The translations under genes and the position numbers were made by a program. Positions 21,350-57,600 of a stretch of DNA of 64,000 nt are shown in pieces; position 1 is the stretch's first letter; every line of letters starts with the position of its first letter. This DNA comes from Clytia hemisphaerica (lineage: Eukaryota; Cnidaria; Hydrozoa; Leptothecata; Clytiidae), in contig CACVBU010001235.1 of assembly GCA_902728285.1 (NCBI GenBank), positions 62,001 through 126,000 of the forward strand. Direction: 5' to 3'. The notes below the pieces were generated by a model that saw nothing but the letters and a program-made list of their open reading frames with translations, had not been told where the DNA came from and ran no database searches.

Positions 21350-21711
21350 CACATTTTTTTATTAGAACACCTAAAATTTGGCTGAGCCTGGATGTGCTTA
21401 TTTCTATAGCAATTTTTAGCCTAAAATGTTCTTAAATGCGTTCTTAATTTTTCAGACTACTTTAAATCGACAATATCATGCAAAATAAAGAGCACTTAAA
21501 ATTGGTAAAATTTGAACAATATTTGACGCTCGATTTTAGAAAATCCATCTCTAAGTTCGGTTAAAACTGCTTGAAACGAGGAAAAAATTGCAGTTTCTTG
21601 TCATTTTTTTCCAAACTGAGGCTGGGCATGTTCTTACGATGTTCTTAGTTTTTCGACGAATTTCAGCCTGAATGTTCTTATAAATTGGGTTCAAATAAAA
21701 AAAAAAACGTT
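21350..21711. mobile_element. GTTCTTA-type MITE (full length)
   Basis: TA then CACATTTTTTTATTAGAAC on the left and GTTCAAATAAAAA..AAACG on the right. Inside are repeated TTCTTAA words together with GAGCCTGG / GAGGCTGGGC. It is about 90% alike by eye to 33915-34275 over its whole length. Confidence 0.8.
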
Positions 21712-22985
21712 TAATAAAAGAAGAATTTTAACAAGCTCAACTGAAAGTCAGTTAAGGAGATGTATTATTTTTCAACTTAAAACTTCGATTGAAAATTCAC
21801 CACATTCAGATTGGATAGAAATCATTCTGTTTATTTAAATAAAATATCAAAAACTGATCGAATTTAATTTTTTTCAAGTTGAAGGATAGGCGTCAGCGAA
21901 CCTGCTTTGAAATTCTAGAAAGTGTGATTTTTTCGAATTTGAAAGTCAAGGATGGAAAACATTTTCATTTAAAAGTTTGTTCTCAGGAATATGTTGCTAT
22001 TGATCATGTTTTGATTTGACCTTGATATTTCCCAATGAGGTTAAAGCCTTTGTTTAATATTATGGGGGCTTATAACACATCAAGATGTATATCAGTCTTA
22101 AATATTTGTTTGAATTTAGTCAGAGTTTTGTAAATAAGTGTCTTTAGCTTATGCAGTTATGCACTTTTTCCTGAAATAGTGTTCGTTATGAAAAATATAT
22201 AAAAGAAATGCTGAAAGCCTAGTTTCAGTTGTGGTTCAGTTTTTGATACACTTTTGAAATGTGGTTCACTCATGGTCTGTGTTTTGTGTTTCAGACTTTT
22301 AGTTATTATTTTAGTTTTATTTTATAATGAGAAAACTATGCTTTGCTTGTCATCGATTTCAACAAATAATATTGTATTTCTGTATCGTAGCCCATAATAG
22401 CTAGTTTATGTATTTTGCATTTTTGAGGATGGTGGATTCAGAGACTGAAGCGATTTGGAATAACCCTCGTTTTGCCCTGCAAAATCGAGGGCGGTAAAAG
22501 TGTTTAGGGATCACAATCTTTCTTATGGGCGTTGGCTTATGGTTATATAGTCTTAAATTATAAACAGTTTATCGATATTTGATAACTAGTAAAAAGTAGT
22601 AAAAACGGAAACAGTGCTTGGTTACTCCAGTTTCGTTTTTTCGTGTATGAAAAAGGATGCCAATTTGCGTCGGCGGTGAAAACGGTAATTTACTAATGAG
22701 AAAACAGTCAGTTTACTTTTTAGTAAGTTTTTTTTGTATCGTGATTTCTTTAATTTCAATATGCTGTTAATTTGAAACCTGGTTGGAAACAACATTTTCT
22801 TCCGCCTAGAAATTATAAGTAATTACCTGTTGAAGATATTTTTCGCTTTTTCCAAAATATTGGCCCTTGATTTTTTGAGCATCTTTTATGAGATCCTGCC
22901 TCGAAACTGTTAGTTTTGAATCCTTTGGGGAAATAGTTCTATTTTAAACATAGAATCAATTTAAACAGTGAATCTGAGCAATATT

Positions 22986-54600: not shown

Positions 54601-57600
54601 TGTCTATAAGTGATACCACAGGTACCCTTCTGGCCGTGACGACTAGCAAATTTGTCACCAATCTGTGGAGTTCGTACGGAACGCACCTAAAGAAAAAGGT
54701 TAGAATCTATGAACTCTAAATCGTCGTTAGTGAGTCTTTCATTGTGTCACAAAATTCCTTTAAATTTCATCACCACAGATAAAGGTCCGGTTATGAGAGC
54801 CCAGCCTGTAGACAGCATCGAGTTTTACTTGCTTTTTACCTCGTTAAAGAAAAAGCTTGGTAAGCTTGAGGAAAGTAAGTCTATCCTCAAATGAACAAAT
54901 GAAAGGGGTATTACAATAGAAATTTCTTCGGAATTCCTCGAGGGAATTCTATTGTAATACCCCCGAAACAATCCCACAATGCATCGCTGTTTTAGAAAAA
55001 TCTAAATCTCCGATAAGGTCTATAGAAACTTACTTTGATTTTGCAAAACTTGTACCCTTCTTCATTGATGGTCAACATGACTTGATCGACAATACCAGTT
55101 TCACTGGCTCTCAAGAAAGTGCTACAGCATCACGTTTGGTGTAATGCCTGGTCTGTGAGTCCAGTTCGTCTTCGTCTTCCGGTAATGTACATGTTTTACC
55201 AATAATGACATCTTCACCGGAGACACGGGAACCTGGCGCTATGAGGCCGTCTTCATCCAGTTTATCATAAATAGCGTTTCGCATACCTAACATAAAAGAA
55301 ACGTTTTTTTTAAGAAGAGAAAGAATATAAAGTCTAGTTCCGACTGATACGAGCAGTCTGTCTCAAGTTTATTAAAAAGTTTACATTTGGCGCACGCGCT
55401 GGTGTAGAGAAAATATCCATAGTCGGATAATGAACGATAGTGAAATTTTTGCATCACTTCTAGTGGGACTAATCTTCAATGTTTTACCTGCAGTTTCGTC
55501 TCTGCGTGGCTTTTCGAATCTTTCTTCTTGGTCCAATCCTTTCCTTGATTCTTCGTCACGATATGAACGGTAAAATACAGATCTGCAAAATGAAAATTTA
55601 CAACATTGAATTTATAATATAACCCTCTAAATTTACAAGGTGGATTTACTGGGTTCGTGTCTCGTCGGGACTGAATGCGCCAATATATTGATGAAACTTC
55701 CAGGAAAGGCATCGAAAAGGTTTTACTGGAATGTTTTGAAGACAATACACGTTTTTTTTTTTAAGAAACACGAGGCTCTTAATGCCTAAAACCAAAGAAA
55801 CATCTAAGAAACATGCTTGAGGCCGAGAAAATAACATTTTTTAATTTGTTTTTTTTTCTTTGCATGAAAAATAGGCTGATTATGTCACAAAGTTTAGAAA
55901 CATATAAAAAACATTTAATTAAGGCTCCAAAGGCCGATTTCTTAAGAAACATTGAGGCTGCTTGGTAAAACTAGTTTCTTAAAACAAAGAAACGTGTAGT
56001 TTTAGTTGAAAGTCGCTATTTCAATCTTAGGGTATTTCTTAAACATCCGTTATTTGTATTTGTAAGGGCGTCACCGTAACCTCCAGTCGCACTTCTCAAA
56101 ACTTGTTCCATCCATGCAACTTTTGGTGCATAACGTTGATAGACATATAAGCTGAGACATCGAGACAAAAGAAACTAAAATGAGTTTGAGAAACATGTGC
56201 TAAACGGGAAATGACGGAGCGTTTGTAAGGCATGGGTAATGCAAGAACAACACTTTAATTAGTTTACCTGTAGAGACCACGATTGATAGCTGAGAAGTTC
56301 ATGAGAACAGAATCTTCTTGGTTGTAACCCGTATAAGAGGCAATTGCTACCACAGAATTGATACCTAAAATTTGAAGTGAAGTAAGATTATTATAGTGTT
56401 GTAGCTAACTATGATGTATTGGACGAGGTTAGAAAAGTAGAGATTGTCCTTGATATAGATTAAACCGTTCTACAAGTAGGCTTCATGAGTCTGGACGAAA
56501 ATCGGAGCCAATCTTTGGTTTTGTGGGTCATTTCACCAAAAACTCTCTCACTGGTAAGACGGAAATTGTGTGTTTTTATTTTAACTGGACGGACTCTGGT
56601 CTTAGAGACGGAAAGGTTGTAATACTGATTAATTAAAAGGCATTTAGCATAATAAGAAATTTAAAGAATGAAAACTATCGATCCATCTATAATCACTCTC
56701 CTTCTCGTAATTTATTAATCCAGCATCCACTCACCAGCAGGCAACTCTCTGAACTTCAAGAAGTCCATTGATCTTGTAGTGACCAGTGGTTTTTGTGGAT
56801 AGTAGAGGACGTGCGCTAATGTATCCATACGAACGTGAAAGTTGGTGATGTACACACCCATGGCTTGTTTACCCATAGCAGATTGGTAGGTATTACGTGG
56901 AGACTGAAAAAGTAAGGATAGACCAGATTTTTAATATATTAATCGGTACTTCTATATGATGTTCGATATTTTTTCCATACAAATTACACAGAATCAAGAC
57001 AGAGAACTGAATAAAAACCTGTGTATTAAAACCTGTTTCCAGTGATCCCGCGAGTGACAACAAGCTAGATCAAAATTCTTAAATAGATTTGTCTAGATCA
57101 AAATCCTTAAATAGATTTGTCCACAGACTACGCGCGATAAATCTTTGATTTCCATCAAGAAAGAGGTGGACTCGAACACAATATGTATATTTATTTTTTT
57201 GTTTATTCAGCAGCTTTTCTTTTTCTTGATTGGGTTAAAAATTATCAATTGAGATGTGCGCTCCCGTCCGCTCAAGAAATTTTGATCTAGCGTGCACGCT
57301 CACGCAATCGATGGAAACAGGCCTTTATGAAAGGATATGGTATAAACGTACCTGGTTGTGATCAGGGAAAGGGATAATGGACGCACATACGCCCAAGATC
57401 ATGGATGGATGAATTTCACAATGTGTGTATGTATCGGAATACTGGTCTTCAAAAGAGATGTTTTCAATGGACATAGCAATCATGGATGTTTCTTCTTCGT
57501 TGACGTCCACGTATTCTACCACACCTTTACCGACTAAATCAGCCCATCTGGAAAAATATGAAGAAGTTGTTTGCAAAGTACCCTAAGAGTTGATTCTTTT

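Follow-up and report, generated by a model that had tools for sequence, protein, structure and literature searches.

The 64,000-nucleotide stretch analysed here, which we call the window, comes from the hydrozoan Clytia hemisphaerica (assembly GCA_902728285.1, contig CACVBU010001235.1, positions 62,001 to 126,000) and has a base composition of 65% A+T. It contains six related lineages (A, B, C, D, E and F) of miniature inverted-repeat transposable elements (MITEs), whose arms carry arrays of short repeated words (Table 1). Except where ends have decayed, these elements share a TA flank and a CAC(G)TTTTTTT-type start that recurs inverted at the other end. The terminal inverted repeat (TIR) starts with CACG in families A, D, E and F, and with CACT followed by a T run in B. 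Sites resembling the TIR sequence CACGTTTTTTT with at most one mismatch occur 20 times in the window, part of them outside these MITEs, against 6.45 expected, and 0 of 100 shuffles reached 20. The elements have the short length, TIRs, target duplication and high copy number of MITEs, and were judged non-coding by length only. Retained copies span 253-371 bp, and first-look candidates in the genome number 1296-2501 for each of five families.

Table 1. Coordinates of the MITEs in the window and of a Transposase_21 element lineage elsewhere in the genome.
Feature	Position	Strand	Remarks
Family A MITE	21348..21713	+	word GTTCTTA, with variants in the TIR and in one slot; TA flanks
Family A MITE, second copy	33913..34277	+	91.6% identity to first; genome query
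Family B MITE	31945..32213	+	word GTTCTTA; right end approximate
Degraded old B relative	31050..31314	+	mixed words; ends approximate
Family D MITE	25360..25724	+	word ATTCTTA; CATCATGG/CATGGA replacing CAGCCT of others
Family E MITE	46473..46764	+	word GTTCCTTA
Family E remnant, right arm	16440..16569	+	ends approximate
Family F MITE	55746..55998	-	word GTTTCTTA; aligns with others as reverse complement; part of one arm lost in window copy
Lineage C copy	38846..39296	+	decayed ends; mixed words; nested insertion ~38944-39176
Immobile lineage C copy	61840..62062	+	embedded in a different repeat; words mixed; serves as natural control
Second immobile lineage C copy	60925..61156	+	in duplicate of carrier repeat; mixed words; ends approximate
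Transposase_21 element lineage	L081:801-6501, continuing in L131; also L083, L129		CCC ends; CAAGTATG/CAAGTCTG subterminal arrays

With F taken in reverse, the five families A, B, D, E and F have arms that match slot by slot. A word of 7-8 bp recurs four times in each arm, once as the inner part of the terminal repeat, so that eight slots per element can be named; D has one extra. The words end in CTTA and often have an AGCCT box upstream. Start-to-start distances between slots are 31-33, 34 and 11-12 bp in the left arm and 11, 32-33 and 14-15 bp in the right, and are kept to 1-2 bp across the five families. A turn of DNA is 10.5 bp, so spacings of 11 and 32-34 bp are near whole turns and would place the sites on one face of the helix. 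What differs between families is the word itself: GTTCTTA in A and B, ATTCTTA in D, GTTCCTTA in E and GTTTCTTA in F. Exceptions in the consensus sequences are GTGCTTA in slot 2 and GTTCTAA in the TIR words of A, ATTCCTTA in slot 6 of E and GTTTCTAA in slot 4 of F.

Could the families be unrelated, with AT-rich short words and chance mimicking the shared slots? Summed over ten family pairs, only about half of the spacer sequence is identical (266/555 on the left, 245/433 on the right), and the left-arm spacers of E and F agree at just 11/53, as such a mimicry might give. However, the slot spacing is equal to within 1-2 bp in five families, and arms with one side shuffled align at a mean identity of 0.338 and at most 0.471. 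Moreover, the genome holds 5394 ends of the form TACACGT7-N0-5-TAAG against 2 for the reversed-pattern control, although families whose ends differ from this pattern (B, most of D and A's own TTAG ends) are under-counted. The three-word left-arm arrangement with GTTCTTA occurs 2776 times against 1 for its control, and GTTCCTTA-type ends 1145 times against 0. We therefore regard an origin of the shared slots by chance as very improbable.

The original prediction, made from the letters of the window, described related copies with TA flanks and differing repeated words. That pattern is real and stronger than described, with six lineages and the excess of TIR-like sites given above. Its GTTCTTA copies at 21350 and 33915 do carry this word, but both belong to one family and agree at 91.6%, so they are not independent. 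The copies at 31947 (GTTCTTA) and 25362 (ATTCTTA with CATGGA) have the words assigned to them, but begin with CACT and CACGC rather than with the common end that had been proposed. The variant at 46475 and its remnant near 16,450 were rightly joined, and constitute family E with the word GTTCCTTA. Two readings had to be corrected: the copy at 38846, taken for a clean GTTCTTA copy, contains two TTTTCTTA besides its GTTCTTA words, and the word at 55748, given as TTTCTTA, is actually GTTTCTTA, mostly read from the minus strand (AGCCTCnnTGTTTCTTA). Three copies had been missed, the degraded one at 31050-31314 and the immobile ones at 60925-61156 and 61840-62062, and all of them have mixed words.

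To follow the words beyond the window, we used its copies as queries against its own assembly (417,433,876 bases in 951 contigs), scoring only the 40 best candidates per query. First-look candidates numbered 1543 for A, 1296 for F, 2187 for E, 2501 for D, 1774 for B and 1361 for C; from the matches listed, we fetched 20 of 43, 30 of 41, 30 of 40, 20 of 41, 20 of 40 and 16 of 42, respectively. Copies whose ends were not found were dropped, namely L006, L022 and L024 from F, leaving 27, and L086 and L090 from D, leaving 18. The main slot sample thus comprises 115 retained copies of the five families A, B, D, E and F, with the window copy included for E (L031) and F (L001) and absent for A, B and D. 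Without the window's own copies, identity to the query was 98-99% in E, 92-99% in A, 84-87% in F, 87-89% in D and 81-85% in B.

Over these 115 copies, 837 of 938 slots hold the word of their own family, 8 hold another family's word, 89 hold something else and 4 are missing, which bears out the claim that nearly all words in a copy carry the same change in concert. The family's own word fills 154/160 slots in A, 115/160 in B, 234/240 in E, 133/162 in D and 201/216 in F, and the word of another family fills 2, 2, 0, 1 and 3. Other words occupy 4, 43, 6, 25 and 11 slots in the same order, and the missing slots fall in D (3) and F (1). Counted on both strands, the 30 E copies contain 204 GTTCCTTA and 0 of the three other words; the 20 A copies, 95 GTTCTTA and 2 ATTCTTA; the 27 F copies, 175 GTTTCTTA, 2 GTTCTTA and 2 GTTCCTTA; the 18 D copies, 134 ATTCTTA and 1 GTTCTTA; and the 20 B copies, 115 GTTCTTA, 2 ATTCTTA and 4 TTTTCTTA. 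Averaged over the eight slots, words of one family are 0.9705 identical. When words were shuffled among families within each slot, the mean was 0.862 and the maximum 0.910, and 0 of 100,000 permutations reached the observed value. Restricted to slots 2-7, words from different slots of one family agree at 0.975 (n=75), and words filling the same position in different families at 0.842 (n=60).

Further variety exists in the genome. Among 100 listed of the 5394 ends, the TIR-adjacent word is GTTCTTA in 71, GTTCCTTA in 9, ATTCTTA in 7, GCTCTTA in 5, GTTTCTTA in 5, CTTGCTTA in 2 and another in 1. The arms of family E surround several different interiors (L127, L128 and L132-L141), with nested palindromic insertions interrupting L136 and L137. 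GTTCCTTA is the commonest counted word in L132-L141, which also contain GTTCTTA (two in L135) and GTTTCTTA (two in L140, one in L141). Another MITE of the same general shape lies at L084:4543-4703 and has TATGCTTA words, a further word variant.

Insertion duplicates TA in families A and E. An E copy (L044) and an A copy (L075) lie a few bases apart in copies of one dispersed repeat, and each provides the empty site for the other, with one TA where the site is empty and two where it is filled. Both ends are complete and flanked by TA in 28/30 retained copies of E, 19/20 of A and 11/20 of B, and, following removal of copies with unrecognised ends, in 18/18 of D and 22/27 of F.

What keeps the words of one element alike? 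The original prediction offered co-evolution of sites with a changing transposase or repeated gene conversion within an element. Under the latter, conversion or template switching would overwrite words and spread a mutation over both arms without selection. In its favour, each arm carries many near-identical words, and in family A the words of both TIRs have changed alike to GTTCTAA, which homogenised ends would produce. On the downstream side of the words, however, identity of 6-bp flanks (slots 2-7) is 0.376 between different slots of a family, 0.367 for pairs sharing neither slot nor family and 0.497 for the same slot in different families. Within-family likeness therefore ends at the word on this side, and conversion could leave words at 0.975 and flanks at background only with tracts ending at 7-8 bp. 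A comparison across A, D, E and F also showed fewer changes at word sites than elsewhere, with a pooled odds ratio of 0.57 (p 0.0008); family F drives this effect (10/1294 vs 120/4952, p 7e-5).

Copies that multiply passively provide a second test. In lineage C, 16 fetched genome copies have both outer sides in common with the copy at 61840, except that L151 departs from it on the left; the right side is also common to the copy at 60925. These flanks mark the copies as one dead insertion multiplied within a different repeat. Slot by slot, they carry GTTCTTA; ATCTTTA or GTCTTTA; TTTTCTTA, in 14 of the 16 fetched copies and both window copies; and, in nearly every copy, GTTCCT or GTTTCT with A, T or G as the next base. 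L125, a relative with an intact left end, has GTTCTTA in these slots. Mixed words of this kind are predicted by loss of selection and not by conversion within the element, which would have to leave different words standing in each of the 16 fetched copies. The carrier repeat around the trapped MITE is itself duplicated in the window (60940-61466 and 61897-62368), and its flanks are common to the genome copies.

Several results weigh against a selective explanation. The mixed lineage C group amounts to one event, not sixteen. Upstream 6-bp flanks (slots 2-7) are somewhat alike within families, at 0.409, compared with 0.414 for the same slot between families and 0.308 for neither, as conversion would allow. 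The deficit of changes at word sites is not significant in A (4/740 vs 73/5639, p 0.1) or D (22/756 vs 159/4692, p 0.58) and is absent in E (5/1260 vs 25/6029, odds ratio 0.96, p 1). In family B, the left flanks of six of 20 copies (L109, L110, L111, L113, L121 and L122) agree at no less than 90%; on the right, where L110 is lower, the other five agree at no less than 88%, so this group too was multiplied passively. Yet these six hold 38 GTTCTTA (6.33 per copy), 1 ATTCTTA and 2 TTTCTTA, against 77 GTTCTTA (5.50 per copy) in the other 14. Uniformity thus fades slowly, and the passive copies taken alone leave room for conversion; they make us slightly less confident of selection and slightly more inclined to conversion. 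No such sharing of flanks was seen among the copies of A, E and F, and in D three pairs resemble each other on the right side alone, in our view an effect of where the ends were cut. Additionally, choosing copies by similarity favours uniform ones, a bias in the slot counts, and the slots were defined after the words had been seen. The low spacer identity of E and F points the same way.

Overall, the evidence favours selection on mobility over gene conversion, which we consider unlikely given word-only likeness downstream and the mixed passive element. We propose, with a probability of roughly two in three, that the arms of these families, with their common slots and spacing, are arrays of predicted protein-binding sites and that the word tracks a changing protein. 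A transposase or accessory DNA-binding protein encoded by an element would bind the arrays on both arms and, once bound, join the ends for an insertion that duplicates TA. A copy would be mobile only while its sites fit the current protein, and mobile lineages would thereby keep their eight words alike. A shift in the specificity of the protein would then lead to replacement of the slots by selection, yielding families with common slots and spacing and a different word. From the pattern of sites, we infer their binding nature, the change in the protein and the order of changes. That one MITE clade switched its recognition word several times on a fixed eight-slot scaffold, with a drifting transposase or accessory protein re-selecting each site, seems to us evenly poised.

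Alternatively, each family may stem from a different autonomous element that already bore its own word, the MITEs having inherited it by deletion and never changed it, a prospect we rate a little below even. TIR and internal words agree, or nearly so, in each family, and the several interiors between E arms fit repeated derivation or interior replacement. Moreover, an autonomous-looking Transposase_21 element of another lineage has subterminal word arrays of its own. This alternative, however, shifts the concerted change to the autonomous element and still requires it there, and so refines the proposal of sites tracking a protein without replacing it.

It also lacks its autonomous elements, a gap that counts against our preferred explanation too: an autonomous partner with these MITE ends was found neither by way of TIR pairs nor by way of Transposase_21 matches. 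Widely spaced TIR pairs (C94, 4.95 kb; C3, 4.0 kb; C18, 4.6 kb; and C90, 14.7 kb, judged from its two ends) each appear to consist of distinct MITEs, in some cases with one end decayed. The Transposase_21 profile PF02992 has 106 matches in the genome; by eye, none of the nine on contigs C1-C104 lies within ~10 kb of the listed E-type TIRs. As no partner was found, the protein is reached through its sites and the superfamily is left unassigned.

The L081/L083/L129 lineage shows that this genome also has an element built on a similar plan but differing in its ends and words. It has 747-amino-acid open reading frames matching Transposase_21 and DUF1258, and its copies are 99% alike over 5.8 kb, the third copy at 92%. 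By eye, the left end begins CCCTTAAG at L081:801; right ends read ...CATAAGGG / ...GATTTTTTCATAAGGG in two copies and ...CTTAAGGG / ...TTTTTTCTTAAGGG in one, and both subterminal regions are arrays of CAAGTATG- and CAAGTCTG-type words. These different ends and words rule it out as partner of the MITEs. Both L081 and L083 also contain a MITE of ~120 bases with CACGTTTTTTT-like ends. A palindrome in L082 was rejected as a second subterminal word set, being largely lacking in L144; the two are ~97% alike across nearly the whole compared stretch, and the terminus was not seen there.

How do these MITEs compare with known systems? The claim that no described family behaves in this way does not stand. 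In the available parts of two papers, CACTA subterminal motifs are family-specific and lie on both arms, with co-evolution with TNPA-like proteins raised (PMC2613891), and include those of Chenopodium Jozin (PMC8978399). Family-specific subterminal motifs that possibly co-evolve with a DNA-binding protein are thus already known. CACTA/EnSpm elements (CMC: maize En/Spm, soybean Tgm, Jozin) resemble the MITEs in having subterminal arrays of one short motif on both arms, here with eight slots in five families. In the text available, TCTTA is common to the motifs of En-1 and soybean Tgmt, and the motifs combine a GC-rich with an AT-rich part (PMC2613891); TCTTA also occurs in three of the four MITE words. 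Among the four printed Jozin elements, by our own reading of the sequences, the inner TIR matches the subterminal motif in two and is similar to it in the remaining two (PMC8978399). However, the MITEs begin with CACG or CACT and a T run rather than CACTA, and duplicate 2 bp (TA) rather than the 3 bp of plant CACTA/EnSpm, for which reason too we assign no superfamily; they are also only 250-370 bp long and have no linked Transposase_21 gene. Slot-by-slot orthology between families was not found in the CACTA passages of these two papers. Across the transposase and TIR literature searched, 'subterminal' and 'concerted evolution' occurred together only in PMC8978399, the latter solely in its reference list as far as its text was available. 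Slot-by-slot comparison of families within one genome is thus new as far as the literature was searched.

Other systems share single features. In the text at hand, the fungal EnSpm-like ESTA duplicates TA and the wider CMCT clade has mostly CA..TG termini, both as in the MITEs, a likeness by duplication and termini alone; ESTA comes from fungi, with TET/JBP genes, and the word 'subterminal' is absent from that text (PMC12730594). TRC (SmTRC1), an animal member of the CACTA superfamily, has 2-bp direct repeats in some copies, according to the portion seen (PMC1636069), which is compatible with the 2-bp TA. The L081/L083/L129 element, with its CCC ends and subterminal word arrays, is similar to TRC, whereas the MITEs start with CAC(G/T) rather than CCC and have different words. 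The TA duplication is also that of Tc1/mariner. An open reading frame of 686 amino acids at window 944-3004 (-) is YqaJ-like (PF09588, 6.4e-18) and transposon-like, without a link to the MITEs, and by our own reading has SWIM- and PHD-like cysteine clusters. It suggested ISL2EU/PHIS, which likewise makes an AT-rich 2-bp duplication; we rejected this because that duplication is AT and the ends are usually GG in the part of PMC4482050 available.

The window contains several other features. RPB2-like RNA polymerase subunit exons lie at 53792-60378 (-), with PF00562, PF04565 and PF04566 in the two frames scanned. Long palindromic inverted repeats at 29702-30392 (711-base alignment, 88%) and 11980-12290 (313, 84%) are possibly other MITE-like elements. 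A tandem array of 25/76-base units occupies 127-524.

The joint change of a DNA-binding protein and its many sites is an old question, and a single genome here offers the same set of eight sites in four word variants for comparison, the immobile copies serving as controls. The order of site changes, and whether protein or sites changed first, would be testable with autonomous elements. These families may also provide pairs of transposase and site that do not cross-react. If one clade did switch its word repeatedly, its thousands of ends would be a lock-and-key record of how specificity evolves.

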